Shown: one piece after another, positions 16,145 to 43,929 of the stretch
How positions within the stretch are numbered: the first letter of the stretch is position 1
How the letters are laid out: each line of letters begins with the position of its first letter
Source of the DNA: a virus
Length of the DNA: 64,000 bases
Direction: 5' to 3' (one strand)
Virus record (IMG/VR): IMGVR_UViG_3300020172_006270
Location: 1 to 64,000 of that record
Notes under the pieces: model-generated
What the model was told of the DNA's origin: nothing
The model's input: only the letters and a program-made list of their open reading frames with translations
The model's database searches: none
Position numbers and translations under genes: made by a program

Positions 16145-16654
16145 TCATCCATTCACGAAAGGTTTATTTATACCCAAGGATACCATAACCTCGTGAGCAG
16201 GTACACCCAAAGACGACTTGTGGTCAGAGATAACCCAATCCGTGACGCCCATTTGCAACATCGGAATGACTAACCTTAAATTAGGCATAAGTCTTGGGTC
16301 GTCAAGCACTTCCAGAGGATACCAATCGACTTTTTCTGTTTCGCCTTCTCGTGGCTTGATTACTTTGTCATATACATCCACAGAGAAACAATAAATTAGA
16401 CAATCAACGCCTTTGATCGCCCCGCACAACTTAGGAATCGCCGGACTGCCAATGAGTCCCGACTCTTCAAGAAACTCTCGCATAGCGGCATGAGTAGGCG
16501 TTTCTCCAGGCTCAATTTTGCCGCCAACCAAATTCAAACGACCCTTCTGCCATGCTGGTCTGTCTTTGAGAACCAACAACAATTTTCCATCGGGATGACG
16601 AGCGTGAACGATAACGTAGCTTTTGAGTTCTACTTCGACACTCTTTTTCTTCAC
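16145..16654 (-). CDS. NUDIX hydrolase
   Basis: The 169-residue protein carries a full Nudix box (Gx5Ex7REUxEExGU) at about residues 45-67, beginning GKIEPGE and ending REFLEESGL. Nudix enzymes cleave a nucleoside diphosphate linked to another moiety, for example damaged dNTPs or nucleotide sugars. Nothing visible fixes the substrate. It overlaps the cobalamin adenosyltransferase gene by four bases, and a perfect late-promoter-like TATAAATA sits within its last codons ahead of the helicase gene. Confidence 0.9.
   Translation of the reverse strand: MKKKSVEVELKSYVIVHARHPDGKLLLVLKDRPAWQKGRLNLVGGKIEPGETPTHAAMREFLEESGLIGSPAIPKLCGAIKGVDCLIYCFSVDVYDKVIKPREGETEKVDWYPLEVLDDPRLMPNLRLVIPMLQMGVTDWVISDHKSSLGVPAHEVMVSLGINKPFVNG
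16167..16174 (-). promoter_or_regulatory. T4-type late promoter-like TATAAATA before the helicase gene
   Basis: An exact TATAAATA (T4 late consensus) reads leftward, ending 28 bases before the helicase ATG at 16138. It lies in the last codons of the Nudix gene. A helicase would not be expected to need a late promoter, so this could be chance in AT-rich sequence. Confidence 0.3.
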
Positions 16655-17241
16655 TTACTTGCCTCCGGTTTTGTGCCTTGCCATATAGTTTCTGTCTTCC
16701 CGGCAGAATAGCACAAATAGCGGGCCATGATGAAGAGATAATCGCTGAGGCGATTGATGTACGGCACGATAAATTTGAAGCCCTCAACATTTGGAATCTT
16801 GCTGGTTGGCATTTCTGAAAGGAGTCTTTCAGATTGCCGCATAAAAGTACACAGCTTGCGTTCCACACGACGGCATACCGCTCGTGCGATATGAACCTCA
16901 GAAGGATAATGAGGAAGAATAAAGTTCTTGAGTTCAGGCAAGTCTTTATCGAGTTCCAAAGACTTGACCTCCAACCAACGAACATCCTCAAGAGAAAGAG
17001 GAGAGCGATATTGAATGACGAATACGCCAAGCTCAAAAATATTGCCTTGAATCGTCTTCAGGTCTTCATCGAATTGTGGATACAACTCTCTAGTGCGACC
17101 CAACCAACAATTAAGTTCATCAAGGTCGCCCAGGGTGTCAATGACAAAATCATCTTTTGCACATTGCTTATGGATTCCGGCGTAAGTCCATCCATCATCG
17201 CCATATCCGGTAGTTATTGTAGGTCTTAATTTGGGTTCCAT
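16651..17241 (-). CDS. PduO-type ATP:cob(I)alamin adenosyltransferase
   Basis: This 196-residue protein fits the PduO/MMAB family, which makes adenosylcobalamin from ATP and cob(I)alamin. Visible signatures: TTGYGDDGWTYAG at the N-terminus (usual YTRTGDDGTT.L), an acidic LGDLDELNCWLG (usual GTVDELNxxLG), FILPHYPSEVHIARAVCRRV (usual FILPGG..A..LHxARxxxRRAER) and YINRLSDYLFIMAR (usual LNRLSDxLFxxAR). The PGG is changed to PHY, and KxxK phosphate-binding lysines are only partly kept. Unusual in a phage; may support B12-dependent host enzymes such as class II ribonucleotide reductase. Overlaps the Nudix gene by four bases. Confidence 0.85.
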   Translation of the reverse strand: MEPKLRPTITTGYGDDGWTYAGIHKQCAKDDFVIDTLGDLDELNCWLGRTRELYPQFDEDLKTIQGNIFELGVFVIQYRSPLSLEDVRWLEVKSLELDKDLPELKNFILPHYPSEVHIARAVCRRVERKLCTFMRQSERLLSEMPTSKIPNVEGFKFIVPYINRLSDYLFIMARYLCYSAGKTETIWQGTKPEASK

Positions 17242-17392: not shown

Positions 17393-17950
17393 TTATACCG
17401 TACCCAAGTAATCGAATTCGGAAAGGCTTACTTGGCCAGATCGGATTGCTTTCTCTCTAGTTATCTTCTTGCCCATGCTTTTTTGCCCATTCCAGACAAT
17501 AGCCTTGCAATAAGTGGCGAACTTGGCGTCGATCTTCAAGTTCTCTTTCTTATTGGGCCTCTCCTCTTTCGGCACGATTTGCCGAACGATCTTCTGGAGA
17601 AGCTGTTCTTGGAACGTCCCGAACTTCTGGCGGTTTGCACCATGTCGAGTTCGGTTAGCCCACAAGTTCTCTAGCTCTTGTATGATATGCTGCATAAACT
17701 CATCGGTAGCATATTTCTTTGCTACGGCAAGACATTTTTCAATGTATATCTGCCGCTTGTAATAGCTACCGGCCCTGAGCATAGACATCTGGAGTTCTTG
17801 CTTGATGTCTTCGGGATCATCGGTGTAGTTGTTGCGAGAGTTCTTCTTCTTGAGTTCGTGTGCGGCGTGCCAACAAAGACGACCGAAACGCTGCTCAAGT
17901 TCAAGATATTCTTCTTCATTGATGCTGTAATTTGTGCAAATGTCTAACAT
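17393..17950 (-). CDS. Sigma-factor-like protein (gp55-like candidate)
   Basis: The 185-residue protein resembles region 2 of small sigma factors by eye: EQRFGRLCWHAAHEL, an acidic DDPEDIKQELQMSMLRA like the sigma (D/E)DLxQExxxxLxxA helix, and later KFATYCKAIVWNGQKS where sigma-70 proteins have FxTYxxxxIRxxI; SGQVSLSEFDYL follows as in sigma region 3. T4 gp55, the late sigma, has the same length. T4-late-like boxes elsewhere in the window support this, but the call is tentative; the CDS itself is secure. Confidence 0.45.
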   Translation of the reverse strand: MLDICTNYSINEEEYLELEQRFGRLCWHAAHELKKKNSRNNYTDDPEDIKQELQMSMLRAGSYYKRQIYIEKCLAVAKKYATDEFMQHIIQELENLWANRTRHGANRQKFGTFQEQLLQKIVRQIVPKEERPNKKENLKIDAKFATYCKAIVWNGQKSMGKKITREKAIRSGQVSLSEFDYLGTV

Positions 17951-17957
17951 TGGTCCT

Positions 17958-19268
17958 CTAGGTGCGGAGTAACTTCAGATCATCAAGGTTGCGACCAGCA
18001 CGGCAAGTTACTCTGAGCCGTAAACCGGGGCATAAATCTGACTCGCCAGTAAGAACATCTCGGCCAAGTTTTGCTATGGCTTTCCAGTTCTCCTTCGTTG
18101 CATACACAGCGTAACCGTCGTGAACGGTGTAGGCGAGGTCGGTTTTATCTTTGAGTGCGAAATATAGGTGGGATAACTTTTCCAAACACACGACGGATGC
18201 CGGTGATTGAACTGCGAAGTTTCTGACAGAATATTCTTTGCCTTCCTCGAAGCTGGAGCGGCGTTTGCCAAAGATGTCTTTGGCATATCCGAGTTCTTGA
18301 AGCTGCTTCTGATAACCCTCGATGAAGGCCAAAGCAACCGGAAACAAAGCGTCAATGCGTTCTGAAATAATCTCTGCGACATCTAAGGCGACACCGCAGC
18401 GTTGGCTTAATGAATAAGCCGACTGTCCATATATAACCGGCAGAAAGAATTTTTTCGCCATTTCACGATCATTTTTTCCTTCGCATTTCTTGCCGGTAAT
18501 CTTCTCGTAAAGAGCCACATAAATATCCGGCTCCCGACAAAGCTCCTGCAATAACGGGTCTTTGCTCATCCAAGCCAGCATGAAGACTTCCATGCCCTTG
18601 TAGTCAAAGACCATGAACAGATCGCTCTCAGAGCGAGGCTTGAGAGCCTGCCGTGTTTCCGGCTTCATGGCGTGCGGAACATAACCCTGCTGATATTCTC
18701 CAGAACATTTCAGACGGCCATTTTCCTGGCCGTTGATTTCGTAATACGCATAGACCCTATTGCCGATTTGCGTATTGAGAATACCAACAGTTTCGAGATG
18801 AGGAATGACCGTGGTAATGAGCGGTATATGGACCTTGCGATAAACAGTCTCAACCTCTCTCCACATGCCAGTGGTGATGAGGTCTTTCAATCTGTTCATC
18901 GCCTCGATCAGTGTCTTCGGAACATTGAACTTGCGCCCGCAATAAGTTTCGATTATCTTCAAGTCAATAATTGCCCCATCGACGGGATACGTCTTGCCAG
19001 TCTTGGCCAGAATGAAACTTACGAAGTTCTTCCAATTCCAAGCGACAATCTTGTTGCTCTTTCCAAAAATACTCAACCGCAACATCGGCAGGAGTATCGG
19101 CAAAACTTCATCCGTGAGCATGACTTTAATTTGCCCACTCGAACTGAATATTTGCAATTCCGGTACGACTGCCCGATCCGTGAAGTCAAGCACTTCCGGC
19201 TGGCAACAGATAAACACATTTGGCCCTACCGTATCGGCGAGAGCCTTTGCCAGTTGTGAGTGGTCCAT
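17958..19268 (-). CDS. polA: Family A DNA polymerase, exonuclease-reduced, Leu762 type
   Basis: About 436 residues, half the size of bacterial PolA: the polymerase domain plus a short remnant ahead of it, with no clear DEDDy exonuclease. Motif A is VFDYKGMEVFMLAW (catalytic Asp and Glu kept), motif B REMAKKFFLPVIYG with the conserved Arg, Lys, Tyr and Gly but Leu where E. coli has Phe762, and motif C VHDGY with Gly replacing the Glu of HDE. ATG at 19268 is preferred over a TTG nine bases upstream. Proofreading may come from the separate DEDDh exonuclease at 46327. A large structured non-coding stretch lies just upstream. Confidence 0.93.
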   Translation of the reverse strand: MDHSQLAKALADTVGPNVFICCQPEVLDFTDRAVVPELQIFSSSGQIKVMLTDEVLPILLPMLRLSIFGKSNKIVAWNWKNFVSFILAKTGKTYPVDGAIIDLKIIETYCGRKFNVPKTLIEAMNRLKDLITTGMWREVETVYRKVHIPLITTVIPHLETVGILNTQIGNRVYAYYEINGQENGRLKCSGEYQQGYVPHAMKPETRQALKPRSESDLFMVFDYKGMEVFMLAWMSKDPLLQELCREPDIYVALYEKITGKKCEGKNDREMAKKFFLPVIYGQSAYSLSQRCGVALDVAEIISERIDALFPVALAFIEGYQKQLQELGYAKDIFGKRRSSFEEGKEYSVRNFAVQSPASVVCLEKLSHLYFALKDKTDLAYTVHDGYAVYATKENWKAIAKLGRDVLTGESDLCPGLRLRVTCRAGRNLDDLKLLRT

Positions 19269-19277
19269 GTGCCTCAA

Positions 19278-20063
19278 TCATGCGGTTACTGCCAAGGATG
19301 TCGTTGTTGAAGTATAAGACTCAAACCCTTTGATTGCAAGACTGTTCGTTGTCACTTTGATTCTGAGTTGGGTGTACAACAAGCGCTTCTTATAAGTAAT
19401 TTATAAACTAAAAGAGCCTTCTTATTATTGGGATTAACTCTTGTACAAGTAACTGTAAATAGTCACTAATACAATAGCCGAAATTTTCGGCTGTAATCCC
19501 AACAATAAGTTAGCTCAAAGCTCTTTCTGATTTACACCCAACTTCCGTTGGAGCAATTATAGGTTCAGCGGATTATATCGGTTTCTTTGTGATTTATCCC
19601 AACCTCGTTTATCTGAGCGACGAGGCACGCCGTTGGTGGGTGTTGAATCCTAGCTCTTATTCAATCCTCGGAGATTGCTCTCCGACTAGCCGCTACACGT
19701 CGGCCCATTGCCACCTAAGACCTCTTTTGAGGAAGAAACCCTATCCAGTAAATCAGGCCCTCTGACCAATCCGGGGTTCTGGGGCTGTAGCATCAAAGGC
19801 TTTCCAAAATCTGAAGGGATATTTCTAACCCAGCAGCGATGACCTGTATGCCTTCTTGAAGGTTTTCACTCGGCTATTTGGATGCACTTATTTCACCGAG
19901 CGTCAATATCCTAGACATGGAATTCGTTTCGATCAAGCCAGATAGAACGTATTTTTACCGCTTCCGGCCATTCGATCCCAGGTTTTTTCTTTTAGTTTGG
20001 TTGTAGCGCATAAATACGGTAGACCCAGGTACGGGTATTTCTTTTTTACTATGGAAGGATTCC
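19278..20063 (-). ncRNA. Long gene-free structured region, candidate large RNA
   Basis: No coding frame is supported across 786 bases between divergent genes. Nested inverted repeats define a domain: 19366-19376 with 19533-19543 (11 bp, exact), 19411-19417 with 19520-19526 (7 bp), 19422-19436 with 19494-19508 (14 of 15) and hairpin 19476-19492. More hairpins follow at 19603-19625, 19682-19703, 19721-19732, 19851-19862 and 19869-19900. Two imperfect pairs (427/503 in the long stem; the 19448-19467 hairpin) are A-C on the plus strand but G-U on the minus strand, and 19538-19551 has a GGAA tetraloop on the minus strand, so a leftward RNA is favoured. Family not identified; it could be a polA leader, an origin or a stand-alone RNA. 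Confidence 0.45.
20018..20025 (+). promoter_or_regulatory. Late-promoter-like CATAAATA before the amine oxidase gene
   Basis: CATAAATA differs from the T4 late consensus by one base and lies about 40 bases before the ATG at 20064, with a good GGAAGG ribosome site in between. It is followed by an inverted repeat (AAATAC/GTATTT) and a T-run, so a hairpin role is also possible. Confidence 0.3.
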
Positions 20064-21350
20064 ATGAAAATAATTGTAATCGGAGCAGGATTCTCCGGCC
20101 TTGCTTGTGCATACGAGCTAATGACCGCTGGTCATACCGTTCAAGTTCTGGAAGCTCGCAACCGAGTTGGTGGCCGAGTATACAGCAAAGACGATTTCAT
20201 CTCTGGCATGAACGTCGAATTCGGTGGAGAGCTTATCGGCTCGAACCATTATTCCTTAATCGGCTACGCTCTTGAGTTTGGCCTCGAATTCTTGGAAGCC
20301 GAAGATAATGATGCTGAAACACCGATCATACTGAAGCAACAAAAGCTGTCGCAGGTAGAGTACGGAAATATCAAAACAGAAATATCCAAAATGCAAAATG
20401 CGTTGTCGGAAATGGCTGTTGATATTGATGCTAACCAACCTTGGTTGTCTCCACGAGCCGAATATCTGGATCAGATTTCGATGCGAGAATGGATTTACAC
20501 TCAAGATGCTTCGGCAATATCCAAATATCTTTTCGATATTCAGGTATCGAGTGACAATGGCGTAACCTCTGATAAGCAAAGTCTTTTGGGCAACTTAGTT
20601 TTAATTCGAGGCGGTGGCCTCGATAAATTCTGGAGTGATACCGAAAGCTACCGCACCAAGGGCGGCAACCAACAATTCGCTTTGAAGTTTGCTCAAAAAT
20701 TAGGCACTCGATTAACTTTGAATTGCCCGGTAACTCATATCATCACCGAGCCAAATGTTGTTGTTGTAGATGCTCATGGCGTAAATCACGAGGCCGATAT
20801 TGTCGTATTGGCAATTCCACCTTCACTGTGGTCTACCATTTATTTCACGCCGGAATTACCTGAAGATTTCATTCCTCAAATGGGAATGAATATCAAGCAT
20901 CTCTCGGCAGTTGAAAGCAAATATTGGATCAACAAAAACGTGTCGCAAAATGCCAAAGGCGACAGAAAGATTAACGAAACATGGAACGGCACAGAGGGCC
21001 AAGTCCAGGTTGATTATTCTGCCATCGTGATATTCAGTGGTGGCGAATCTGCAAAATCAGTAAATGCTGAGAAGGAATTGCTTGATGAGTTGGAGGAGTT
21101 TTATCCAAATATCAACCAGTCTATTGTTCGCAGTGAACTGGTTAATTGGATAACTGATCGCTGGACAAAGTGCGGATATTCTTTCCCGGCACCTGGAGAG
21201 ATCACAAAGCTCGGCCCAATTTTGAGACAGGGCATTGGGAACCTGCATTTTGCAGGTGAACATACATGCTATAAGTTCATTGGATACATGGAAGGCGCAG
21301 TCACATCTGGTTCGGACTTGGCTGCAAGAATCATCAAAGAATTAAAATAA
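20064..21350 (+). CDS. FAD-dependent amine oxidase
   Basis: This 428-residue protein is a flavin monoamine-oxidase family member: dinucleotide-binding VIGAGFSGLACAYEL at the N-terminus, EARNRVGGRV after the second strand (the motif that follows the FAD ribose contact), GGNQQFALKFAQKLG in the middle and LHFAGEHTCYKFIGYMEGA at the C-terminus, where the flavin sits. Members oxidise amines, polyamines or amino acids with release of hydrogen peroxide. Length is normal and nothing appears lost. ATG follows GGAAGGATTCC. It is unusual for a phage, and its ends touch the leftward gene at 21342 by nine bases. Confidence 0.9.
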   Translation: MKIIVIGAGFSGLACAYELMTAGHTVQVLEARNRVGGRVYSKDDFISGMNVEFGGELIGSNHYSLIGYALEFGLEFLEAEDNDAETPIILKQQKLSQVEYGNIKTEISKMQNALSEMAVDIDANQPWLSPRAEYLDQISMREWIYTQDASAISKYLFDIQVSSDNGVTSDKQSLLGNLVLIRGGGLDKFWSDTESYRTKGGNQQFALKFAQKLGTRLTLNCPVTHIITEPNVVVVDAHGVNHEADIVVLAIPPSLWSTIYFTPELPEDFIPQMGMNIKHLSAVESKYWINKNVSQNAKGDRKINETWNGTEGQVQVDYSAIVIFSGGESAKSVNAEKELLDELEEFYPNINQSIVRSELVNWITDRWTKCGYSFPAPGEITKLGPILRQGIGNLHFAGEHTCYKFIGYMEGAVTSGSDLAARIIKELK

Positions 21351-21623: not shown

Positions 21624-21667
21624 GGATTTATATATTGGGCTTGGCACCTATTCAGATACGAGGTAAA

Positions 21668-22435
21668 ATGGCTGAAAACAAAAAAGAACACTTATTCTCG
21701 GAGAGTGATGTGCGACTCGAAGCAATTATCGACTACGAAATGGATGAACTTGAAGGCAAAGCGTATAAATTGTGCTTGCTCTGGCTCGATAGAAGTCGTA
21801 AAGTATTCCCTGAATATCAGCACACGACAATGAAGAAGGGCGACCCTCGAAAGTCGCTGATATTCAAAGTGTGCTACAAGCTGGCTCGTGAGACACAGGG
21901 CGTACTCGAAGAAAAAGACTACCCTTTGTATATCCGGGCGCAGCTTGATGTTCTCCGACACATCAATACCGGCAAGGGCCATCCTCTCATCGACGCAAAT
22001 TGTTTGGTGGGAGATAAAGCCTGGAAGCGGTGGAAATTATGGAAAAGAAAATATGATTCCATCTCTGCGAAGCCGTCCGAAGTATCCCAGCCTGTTGGTC
22101 CCGGCGTTATCAAAGCTCTCGAAGGACTTGAGCGAACCAAAGAGTTCTTCGCCAAAACCTTTGGAGCAAGTCCAAGTCTTGAAAAGTACCGGGAGTCCTA
22201 CATCAACAACAACCTCTTTCGCTGGGTTAATTTCGGCAAAATCAGCCCGTACTATATTGCAATGTCGCCGCACATTGCGGCAGTTATGAAGCCGGAAGAT
22301 TATAAGAGAATGAACTTCGATCCCGATCTGTACAAGCCCTGCATTACAGATGATGTAATTCGTAAGTTCAGGGAAATGTTTCCGCACGAGTTCGATAATT
22401 TTATTTCTGATTTCTCCACTGAGACAATAGGATAA
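21668..22435 (+). CDS. Hypothetical protein, 255 aa
   Basis: ATG at 21668 follows GAGGTAAA, a strong ribosome site; the longer frame from 21635 is unnecessary. The protein is helical and charged throughout, with aromatic-rich segments (KAWKRWKLWKRKYD; NNLFRWVNFGKISPYYIAM). It ends five bases before the next gene. I do not recognise the family; the basic aromatic helices would suit nucleic-acid binding but that is a guess. Confidence 0.75.
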   Translation: MAENKKEHLFSESDVRLEAIIDYEMDELEGKAYKLCLLWLDRSRKVFPEYQHTTMKKGDPRKSLIFKVCYKLARETQGVLEEKDYPLYIRAQLDVLRHINTGKGHPLIDANCLVGDKAWKRWKLWKRKYDSISAKPSEVSQPVGPGVIKALEGLERTKEFFAKTFGASPSLEKYRESYINNNLFRWVNFGKISPYYIAMSPHIAAVMKPEDYKRMNFDPDLYKPCITDDVIRKFREMFPHEFDNFISDFSTETIG

Positions 22436-40844: not shown

Positions 40845-42323
40845 ATGCCAATAGTAATAACGAAACCAGTGCTTACAGCAACCTATTTAGTGGTTGATGA
40901 GAATGGCACTGTTATTTCGTCTCACCCTCAAAATATCGAGATCGAGTCAGTAGACGCCGATAGTTTTTTGCAAGCTCTAAGTGATTTGATGCTGGCAAAA
41001 GACGGCCTTGAACTCACCGCTAGTGAAGTTCATATGTTGATACGCACTGGCAATATGATTTCTCTCGGTAACGTCCAAGCTGCCACTCTCGGCGTTCAGA
41101 GCCAATATCAATTCCCCACAGCGGTTGGATCGACCGGGCAGGTTATTGGGTATCAAGGCACGAGCCAGTTGGCATGGGTTAACTCAGGTAGTGGCGCTCA
41201 AGGCTTTCAAGGAAACCAAGGCGCACAGGGCAATCAAGGCGCACAAGGAAATCAAGGCAATCAAGGAAACCAGGGGTTTGCAGGCTCGGTTGGTTCACAA
41301 GGTTTTCAGGGCAATCAAGGCAATCAGGGAAATCAAGGCACACAAGGCAACCAAGGGAACCAGGGATTCCAAGGTTCTGCCGGTACTGTCGGAAATCAAG
41401 GATTTCAAGGTAATCAAGGTAATCAGGGAAACCAAGGAACACTAGGAAACCAAGGCAACCAGGGATTACAAGGTTCTGCTGGTACGGTTGGTTCACAAGG
41501 ATTCCAGGGAAACCAAGGCAATCAGGGTAATCAAGGCACTCAAGGCAACCAAGGAAACCAAGGCAACCAAGGAAACCAAGGAACCGCTGGATCACAGGGT
41601 TTTCAAGGCAACCAAGGCGCACAAGGTAATCAGGGAAATCAGGGCAACCAAGGCACACAAGGTTTCCAAGGCAATCAGGGTAATCAAGGAACTGCTGGCG
41701 CACAAGGATTCCAGGGCAACCAAGGCAATCAGGGAAATCAGGGCAACCAAGGCACGCAAGGTTTCCAAGGCAATCAGGGCAACCAAGGAACTGCTGGCGC
41801 ACAAGGATTCCAGGGAGTTCAAGGCGCACAAGGAAATCAAGGATCACAAGGAAACCAGGGCATTTCTGGCTTAGGGTTTAGTGTTCCTTATACATTCAAC
41901 ACAAGCACAGTGATGTCGGCGGCTTCTGGAGAAGTTCGATTCAATAATGCTACGATTGCATCTATTACCAATATCGACATCTCAAGAACAGATCGCAATG
42001 GTGCTGGTCAGCAAGCTGTGTTGGATCGCATGTCATCTGGCACATTGTTTAGATTCTCTGCCGAAGCTAGTGCTACACAATACAACTTCTTCCAAGCCAA
42101 TAGCGTAACGAAGAATGCTCAAGATTATAACTTTGCTGTTGCATACTTGTCGAACAATGGATCGTTGTTCTCTAACTCAGCAAATATTGGTTTGGGAATT
42201 GCCATGATCGGCTACCAGGGCAATCAGGGCGCTCAAGGCTTCCAGGGCTACCAAGGCTTCCAGGGCGCTCAAGGCGCACAAGGACACCAGGGCAACCAAG
42301 GTAATCAAGGAGGAGGCATATAA
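40845..42323 (+). CDS. Collagen-like Gly-X-Gln fibre protein, copy 1
   Basis: 492 residues: an N-terminal domain (1-116, ending GQVIGYQGTSQLAW, a pattern of phage tail-fibre joints), a Gly-X-Gln stalk of about 230 residues with GNQ, GAQ, GTQ and GFQ triplets, a globular beta domain (about 348-455, starting PYTFNTSTVMSAA) and a second short Gly-X-Gln stalk to the end. The stalk has no proline; Gln holds the Y position in nearly every triplet, interrupted by GFAGSV and GSAGTV. Triple-helix stability would have to come from side-chain bonds. Probably a virion fibre or whisker. SD GGAG at usual distance. Confidence 0.9.
   Translation: MPIVITKPVLTATYLVVDENGTVISSHPQNIEIESVDADSFLQALSDLMLAKDGLELTASEVHMLIRTGNMISLGNVQAATLGVQSQYQFPTAVGSTGQVIGYQGTSQLAWVNSGSGAQGFQGNQGAQGNQGAQGNQGNQGNQGFAGSVGSQGFQGNQGNQGNQGTQGNQGNQGFQGSAGTVGNQGFQGNQGNQGNQGTLGNQGNQGLQGSAGTVGSQGFQGNQGNQGNQGTQGNQGNQGNQGNQGTAGSQGFQGNQGAQGNQGNQGNQGTQGFQGNQGNQGTAGAQGFQGNQGNQGNQGNQGTQGFQGNQGNQGTAGAQGFQGVQGAQGNQGSQGNQGISGLGFSVPYTFNTSTVMSAASGEVRFNNATIASITNIDISRTDRNGAGQQAVLDRMSSGTLFRFSAEASATQYNFFQANSVTKNAQDYNFAVAYLSNNGSLFSNSANIGLGIAMIGYQGNQGAQGFQGYQGFQGAQGAQGHQGNQGNQGGGI
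41190..41867 (+). repeat. 9-base-phased Gly-X-Gln repeat, gene 1
   Basis: DNA of low complexity made of ggc/gga/ggt-aac/aat-caa/cag codons for Gly-Asn-Gln and variants. Near-identical runs of 30-60 bases recur, so recombination could change stalk length in steps of three residues. It also creates false long open frames in the other readings. Confidence 0.9.
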
Positions 42324-42324
42324 A

Positions 42325-43929
42325 TTGATAATCACGATTAAACCACAAATATCGGTTAGACTTCTTAAAGCAGATGGTGATACCATCCTGTCTGCTCATG
42401 ATAAATCTATCGACGTTGATTTGGTTGCCGATGATTTCATCTCTGCATTCAATACTTTGTTTGCCGACAAAGACGATTATCAACTTGTTGAAAGACCTAT
42501 TGTTTCGACCAATTTCTTATTGGTAAACAATAATGATGTTGTTGTGGCAACTCATCCACAAAGAATTGAACTTGGATTGAACATCGAGAGCTTTTTGGAT
42601 GGCATGAATAAGCTGATCGAAATTCGAGATGGCTTAGGCGGCGTGAATGCGTTGCTCACAATGGGCAATATCATTTCACTCGGCAATGTGCAGGCTGTAT
42701 CTCTTGGCATTCAAAGCCAGTATACGTTTCCAACGACAGCCGGAGTGACTGGACAAGTCATTGGCTATCAAGGCACATCTCAATTGGAATGGATCAGTGG
42801 TGCTACTGGTTTGCAAGGCCCTCTTGGTCTTCAGGGTCGGCAAGGAAATCAGGGGAATCAAGGCAACCAAGGCACGCAGGGCTTCCAGGGCGTTGGATCG
42901 CAAGGCTCGCAAGGCTTTCAAGGCAACCAAGGTCGTCAAGGAAACCAGGGCAACCAAGGCAATCAAGGCAACCAAGGATTTCAAGGTGTTGGATCGCAAG
43001 GCTCTCAAGGCGCACAGGGAAACCAAGGTCGTCAAGGAAACCAGGGGAATCAAGGCAACCAAGGTACACAAGGTTTTCAAGGGTCTGGCTCGCAAGGTCT
43101 GCAAGGCGCTCAGGGAAACCAAGGCAACCAAGGTGTACAAGGCAACCAAGGAACGCAAGGCAACCAAGGCCGACAAGGAAATCAGGGAGCCGGTCTGCAA
43201 GGCGCACAGGGAAACCAAGGTCGTCAAGGCAACCAAGGAAATCAAGGCAATAGAGGCTTACAGGGTCCGCAGGGCCGACAAGGAAATCAGGGAGCCGGTC
43301 TGCAAGGTCGGCAAGGCAACCAAGGAACACAAGGAAGACAAGGCAACCAAGGCAATCAAGGCTTTCAAGGTCGCCAAGGCAACCAAGGTTTAGGACTTCA
43401 GGGGCGACAAGGCTTTCAAGGCAACCAGGGGAATCAAGGCTTTCAAGGCAATCAGGGAGTTATCGCTCCTGGGTTTGTGTTGCCGCTCGCATTCAACACA
43501 AGCACCGTAATGTCGGCGGCATCTGGAGAGTTGAGATTCAACAACGCTACTGTTGCATCTGTGACCAATATTGACGTGTCGAGAACCGATAGAAATGGTT
43601 CTGGTCAACAGGGCGTGCTTGATAAATTTGGTAATGGCACTTTGTTTTTCTTTACGTCTGAAGCGGTAGCTTCTCAGTATAGTTTTTTCACTACTACTGG
43701 CGTGACGAAGAATGCAAGTGACTATAACTTCAGCGTTAGCTATATTTCTAATGCTGGTACTTTGTTTGCTAACTCACAAAATGTGAGTATGGGTGTTGCT
43801 CTGCTTGGATTCCAAGGAATCAGCTTGCAGGGCGCTCAAGGCTTCCAAGGACGCCAAGGCTCTCAAGGCTTCCAAGGACACCAAGGCAACCAAGGCGATC
43901 CTGGTGGTCCGGTTATTGAAGACCCTTAA
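42325..43929 (+). CDS. Collagen-like Gly-X-Gln fibre protein, copy 2
   Basis: Tandem paralogue of 40845 with 534 residues. The N-terminal region is longer (about 160 residues, again with GNIISLGNVQAVSLGIQSQY and GQVIGYQGTSQLEW), the stalk has many GRQ triplets besides GNQ, and the same C-terminal beta domain and short tail follow. The start is TTG at 42325, 12-15 bases after AAGGAGGAGG. GRQ makes this stalk basic, so the two products could pair with each other in a mixed fibre. Confidence 0.88.
   Translation: MIITIKPQISVRLLKADGDTILSAHDKSIDVDLVADDFISAFNTLFADKDDYQLVERPIVSTNFLLVNNNDVVVATHPQRIELGLNIESFLDGMNKLIEIRDGLGGVNALLTMGNIISLGNVQAVSLGIQSQYTFPTTAGVTGQVIGYQGTSQLEWISGATGLQGPLGLQGRQGNQGNQGNQGTQGFQGVGSQGSQGFQGNQGRQGNQGNQGNQGNQGFQGVGSQGSQGAQGNQGRQGNQGNQGNQGTQGFQGSGSQGLQGAQGNQGNQGVQGNQGTQGNQGRQGNQGAGLQGAQGNQGRQGNQGNQGNRGLQGPQGRQGNQGAGLQGRQGNQGTQGRQGNQGNQGFQGRQGNQGLGLQGRQGFQGNQGNQGFQGNQGVIAPGFVLPLAFNTSTVMSAASGELRFNNATVASVTNIDVSRTDRNGSGQQGVLDKFGNGTLFFFTSEAVASQYSFFTTTGVTKNASDYNFSVSYISNAGTLFANSQNVSMGVALLGFQGISLQGAQGFQGRQGSQGFQGHQGNQGDPGGPVIEDP
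42810..43464 (+). repeat. Gly-X-Gln repeat, gene 2
   Basis: Same type of codon-level repeat as at 41190 with interspersed cga/cgt-caa (Arg-Gln) codons. Homologous tracts could drive unequal recombination between the two fibre genes. Confidence 0.88.

Follow-up and report, generated by a model that had tools for sequence, protein, structure and literature searches.

We propose that a large structured non-coding RNA of the minus strand fills a fixed slot before the gene of a family-A DNA polymerase, probably the replicative one, in a lineage of large phages. The RNA lies in the window, by which we mean the whole 64,000-nucleotide stretch that was analysed (positions 1 to 64,000 of the IMG/VR virus record IMGVR_UViG_3300020172_006270, of 223,268 bases). 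Its structure, conservation, strand, slot, linkage to the polymerase and flanking promoter-like boxes are supported by the evidence below. The RNA would be transcribed alone or together with the polymerase and would serve the polymerase that it precedes; a role connected with the polymerase is likely. Made from its own promoter, the folded RNA may bind the polymerase or another replication protein, and this binding would tune when the polymerase is made or used, in the manner of the T4 gp43 operator and on a far larger scaffold. Regulation of polymerase synthesis or activity is the specific mechanism that we put forward, tentatively, from the analysis as a whole. For the complete account as the best explanation we see an even chance. 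The features of the slot and its surroundings are as follows, in window coordinates.

17393..17950, minus strand: gene of a conserved 185-aa protein, part of the syntenic block, directly behind the polymerase gene
17958..19277, minus strand: compact family-A DNA polymerase (Pfam PF00476, PDB sequences, AlphaFold, Foldseek)
19311..19339, minus strand: promoter-like site of the polymerase gene, TTGCAA-17-TATACT, behind the RNA (scan)
19343..19904, minus strand: proposed structured non-coding RNA of about 560 nt (fold z-score, conservation against the relatives L015 and L018, compensatory changes, no ORF, no Rfam match); ends approximate, the 5' end being placed by the promoter-like boxes
19908..19936, minus strand: promoter-like boxes before the RNA, TTGATC-17-TAGGAT (alignment and scan)
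21635..22435, plus strand: divergent 266-aa gene at the other border of the slot, present in nearly all lineages examined

The gap of 786 nt between the polymerase ORF (17958-19277, minus strand) and the plus-strand ORF starting at 20064 had been predicted to be non-coding. This was confirmed, as the ORF listing contains no ORF longer than 58 aa lying wholly within 19278-20063, and the sole 58-aa ORF of the gap (19589-19765, plus strand) is frameshifted in the relative L018 by two 1-nt indels. A conserved protein frame, which the original prediction named as evidence against an RNA, was looked for and none was found; a protein-coding reading of the region was rejected on the L018 indels and the absence of ORFs. 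The gap also remains the only long gene-free stretch, since other apparent gaps of similar size in a rough gene call are occupied by overlapping ORFs. The minus strand of the region folds with an MFE of -226.3 kcal/mol (z -3.5; 0 of 20 shuffles as low) and the plus strand with -218.5 kcal/mol (z -2.5; 1 of 20 shuffles as low). The gap is rich in inverted repeats (19366-19381/19528-19543, 19414-19436/19494-19516, 19476-19483/19485-19492 and more). The predicted nested repeats are therefore present in the window; however, the outermost arm (19366-19381/19528-19543) is lost in L018, where its bases form a local GGAA hairpin instead. The predicted GGAA tetraloop on the minus strand held up, its hairpin (19550-19539) being kept in L018 with an altered stem. 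The region is best read as a structured RNA of about 560 nt, running from about 19904 down to 19343 on the minus strand, and that it is a structured RNA is very probable. The parts of this RNA, all on the minus strand, are listed below from 5' to 3'.

19867..19902: 5' hairpin CGCUCGG/CCGAGUG; in L018 one pair is changed on both sides and one G-U pair has become G-C
19881..19885: proposed pseudoknot loop strand GCAUC (GUGUC in L018), from pairing comparison
19790..19794: proposed pseudoknot partner strand GAUGC (GACAC in L018), from pairing comparison
19558..19763: nearly invariant core (alignment of three distinct sequences, windowed identity)
19740-19733 with 19587-19580: core-closing helix, GGUUUCUU with AAGAAACC (inverted repeat)
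19537..19552: GGAA-capped hairpin, read by hand
19414..19516: long 3' arm GAGCUAACUUAUUGUUGGGAUUA/UAAUCCCAAUAAUAAGAAGGCUC, enclosing two hairpins (inverted repeats)

The same region occurs in five IMG/VR contigs, which give three distinct sequences; no window-type RNA beyond these five turned up when viral contigs were pattern-scanned twice more and GenBank phages were searched by BLAST. Compared with L018, the core is 97% identical in the 100-nt block 19700-19601, and the polymerase gene ranges from 80 to 97% per 100-nt block. Changes outside the core are often compensatory in the three-sequence alignment. There are three two-sided changes across the 5' hairpin and the pseudoknot, with more in the consensus helices; in the RNAalifold consensus, two-sided changes are seen in 5 of 165 pairs and several pairs are broken in one sequence. 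Most helices of this lineage are invariant, among them most of the long 3' arm, which consequently says little on covariation. In the GGAA hairpin of L018 the loop is kept and three near-loop pairs are changed on both sides and still pair, as read by hand. The loop of the 5' hairpin (GCAUC) can pair with GAUGC about 90 nt downstream, with two two-sided changes in L018. In an unbiased scan, this loop pseudoknot was the sole helix of at least 5 pairs with at least 2 two-sided changes; 0.16 such helices were expected and the control frequency was 0.155 (15.5%), which is not significant alone, so that the covariation is suggestive and not proof. Two other pairings were rejected: the RNAalifold pairing GGCAU/AUGCU breaks in L018, where the loop pseudoknot fits better, and the pairing 19323-19334/19792-19803 is lost in relatives. 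Covariation in homologues, as the original prediction called for, is thus seen as compensatory changes in close relatives, but with just three distinct sequences these are only suggestive.

Decisive covariation comes from a different RNA in the same slot. Polymerase relatives at 36-58% identity also have several hundred gene-free nucleotides before the polymerase, and these slots hold another large RNA, which we call type A, or type B in four contigs. A DNA-pattern search for type A, made without use of the polymerase, matched 37 contigs, and in all 37 the same family-A polymerase follows the RNA core at a distance of 363-482 nt, in the same orientation. In helices P1-P4 (14 sequences) 96.7% of cells are paired vs 79.7% when shuffled, 11 of 21 pairs carry two-sided changes, one position shows all four Watson-Crick types, and no slid version of the pairing comes near. 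Helices P5-P6 are 95.8% paired, with two-sided changes in 10 of 14 pairs. A long-range pseudoknot joins an internal loop (UGCCGAC or a variant) to a 3' motif (GUCGGCA or a variant). Of its 84 pairs 79 form, a number that none of 5000 swaps reached. Read from these alignments, the type-A structure is decisively supported by covariation. Type-A helices contain 24 G-U against 7 A-C combinations, a bias that speaks for this strand. Types A and B match each other by nhmmer and by the P5-P6 covariance model (R2), neither has a match in Rfam, and the P1-P4 model (R1) finds one strong copy per record wherever it finds any. The predicted large structured minus-strand RNA is therefore backed in its own lineage by conservation, compensatory changes and promoter placement, and in the same-slot RNAs of relatives by decisive covariation and the bias of G-U over A-C.

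Two of the distant loci deserve separate mention. In L064 (RXKI01000130.1) a type-A RNA and polymerase share a contig of 13 kb that was binned with a Neisseriaceae genome; the binning may hint at a host, or the contig may be a mis-binned phage contig. In the most distant relative (L034:1844-3004; LR756511.1, a 595-kb phage), a 386-aa open frame fills the slot and no RNA is recognisable there. The frame has a C-terminal TIHDSI motif and a weak match to phage RNA polymerases (PHROG 414, E 0.12), and its product is possibly a diverged polymerase-like protein.

The window RNA shares with types A and B its position directly upstream of the same polymerase family, its strand, a similar size and promoter-like boxes; however, nhmmer and two covariance models find no similarity, and we rejected it as a recognisable type A/B homologue. 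With filters off, the best score of R1 in the window is 9.6 bits, on the wrong strand, compared to 69-91 bits for type-A members (the type-B loci also lack the P1-P4 domain). The best score of R2 in the window, again with filters off, is 8.5 bits, compared to 26.6-27.4 bits, in the right place, for the B loci. Both window scores are at chance level. In full-length nhmmer searches every window-type sequence has E >2; types A and B do match each other. These searches support the conclusion that the RNAs of the slot fall into two or more types between which no sequence similarity can be detected. In the polymerase tree, the window and two relatives nest inside the clade that carries type A (support 100/99). 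On the simplest reading, the window RNA would have replaced type A or diverged from it past recognition. Replacement seems likelier than divergence, because type A can still be recognised beside polymerases that are much further apart and because the window-type RNA itself changes slowly. It is conceivable, if on the doubtful side, that the slot needs a large folded RNA and not a given one, so that unrelated RNAs were swapped as obligatory partner, primer or regulator. If true, this would be an undescribed kind of pairing between an RNA and a polymerase, here a compact replicative one of family A.

The order 266-aa gene (divergent), RNA, polymerase and 185-aa gene is widely shared. The distance from the 266-aa gene to the RNA varies from 82 to 1659 nt, with different genes inserted before the RNA in different lineages (an amine oxidase, a 295-aa gene or a 248-aa gene). 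The distance from the first hairpin of the RNA to the polymerase is always 475-659 nt, with no gene between them in the loci compared. With insertions before the RNA and none behind it, RNA and polymerase thus travel as one unit. The flavin amine-oxidase gene of the window (20064-21350, plus strand) separates the RNA from the 266-aa gene in some, not all, close relatives; in L016 a window-type RNA directly adjoins the 266-aa gene, which marks the amine-oxidase gene as a later neighbour. The 185-aa protein is 58-80% identical in distant relatives, which makes it better conserved than the polymerase. It matches no family and might be a regulator. A cobalamin adenosyltransferase gene (16651-17241, minus strand; PF01923) lies within the phage replication gene cluster, and two adjacent collagen-like tail fibre genes occupy 40845-43929 (plus strand). 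In the record (G000), 13 tRNA genes, mostly Leu and Ser, are clustered at about 75-85 kb (L109, L110).

The polymerase probably starts at the ATG at 19268. Its AlphaFold model (pLDDT 87) has a Klenow-like fold over its length, and in Foldseek it aligns with Klenow-type polymerases at a TM of about 0.73 by query length. It is the sole polymerase of family A, B or PolIII-alpha type found in the record and is therefore probably replicative. In motif C, HDG replaces the usual HDE and is invariant in 22 of 22 relatives. The N-terminal part resembles a shrunken exonuclease domain.

The RNA could instead be an unusually long 5' leader of the polymerase mRNA, working as an attenuator, riboswitch or translational operator and never as a separate RNA. 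It always lies upstream on the same strand with no gene in between, and a sequence scan recognised no terminator at its 3' end, as a leader would have it. However, a leader of about 560 nt with pseudoknots would be large. Promoter-like sites lie on both sides of the RNA. The boxes TTGATC and TAGGAT before the RNA are invariant and their 17-nt spacer differs between the window and L018 (site 19936-19908; p 0.10 in the window alone). The site between RNA and polymerase (19339-19311) is strong, with p 0.005 in both the window and L018, and weakens a simple leader model in this lineage. Over 17 loci, sigma-70-like sites are in excess both upstream of the RNA (Fisher 1.3e-7) and in the stretch from RNA to polymerase (Fisher 6e-5), values that are too optimistic because the loci are related and not independent. 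We consider a pure leader somewhat unlikely.

An unlikely reading is that of a trans-acting replication partner. The RNA might, for instance, be a folded primer transcript that the family-A polymerase would extend at an origin, as with ColE1 RNA II, or else a subunit that the polymerase cannot do without. The size of the RNA, its own promoter-like boxes, its strict adjacency to a Klenow-like polymerase and the divergent gene layout at the slot would all suit such a role. On the other hand, a Toprim primase candidate is encoded by the phage itself, at 213.9 kb of the record, and an origin, which the original prediction offered as an alternative, found no support in GC skew: several minima occur genome-wide, the local one at 20.0 kb follows gene orientation, and so does the third-position skew, which carries no replication signal. 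Regulation of the polymerase is preferred to a primer or origin because this origin evidence failed and because the RNA never leaves the polymerase gene.

The original prediction also found the size and layout of the RNA to fit the class of GOLLD and ROOL, and an RNA-only structural or storage complex of that kind, standing near the polymerase for the timing of its expression, would agree with the similar size, pseudoknots, elaborate helices and phage-borne nature of the RNA and with the lack of a known protein partner. Membership of this class was not supported. For the region, Rfam 15 has no hit at the gathering threshold, and relaxing the limit to E=10 brings up nothing of relevance; the best chance match is RAGATH-22, at 18.5 bits vs a cut-off of 120.3, and self-splicing introns, OLE, HEARO and other Rfam families were rejected for want of a covariance-model match. 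GOLLD and ROOL often lie near tRNA islands (PMC12286853), whereas the window contains no tRNA and the tRNA cluster is about 55 kb away. A homo-oligomeric cage characterises ROOL (GOLLD and ROOL structures in PMC12286853). The strict tie to one gene is also unlike GOLLD and ROOL (PMC12286853), and we regard such a complex as quite unlikely. That the structure works as single-stranded DNA, for example as a loading site for helicase or primase with the RNA incidental, is highly improbable: compensatory changes alone do not separate RNA from single-stranded DNA and replication genes are nearby, but the G-U bias on this strand and the promoter-like boxes at the 5' boundary fit a transcript.

Searches of the open-access literature yielded no description of a structured RNA upstream of such a polymerase. 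GOLLD and ROOL are large structured phage RNAs of unknown function with few clues. Here dozens of contigs keep a comparable RNA locked to one gene whose activity is known, that of a DNA polymerase; most of these contigs show decisive covariation, and in the window lineage one RNA has apparently been swapped for another. This gives a large phage RNA a concrete, testable partner and would add at least two candidate families to RNA databases. It might bring to light a step in large-phage replication that involves RNA, and the window RNA may be a piece still lacking from the picture of DNA copying in these viruses.

Among known systems, GOLLD, a structured RNA of phages, resembles the window RNA in its very large size and complex helices, and ROOL does so in its similar size, pseudoknots and phage-borne nature, with function unknown in each case. 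However, the window RNA has no covariance-model match to either; compared to GOLLD it lies away from tRNAs and is tied to a polymerase gene, and compared to ROOL it occupies a fixed slot before one gene, with tRNAs about 55 kb off. ColE1 RNA II is a folded pre-primer RNA of about 550 nt with a sigma-70-type promoter and a link to a family-A polymerase. The window RNA is like it in size, in its promoter-like boxes and in the polymerase family, but lacks origin evidence and a plasmid context, the sequences having been compared through Rfam only. In T4, gp43 binds a structured operator within its own mRNA, and there too a structured RNA stands directly before a phage DNA polymerase gene. That operator is a short hairpin and its polymerase belongs to another family, whereas the window RNA is about 560 nt long and is followed by a promoter-like site before the gene.
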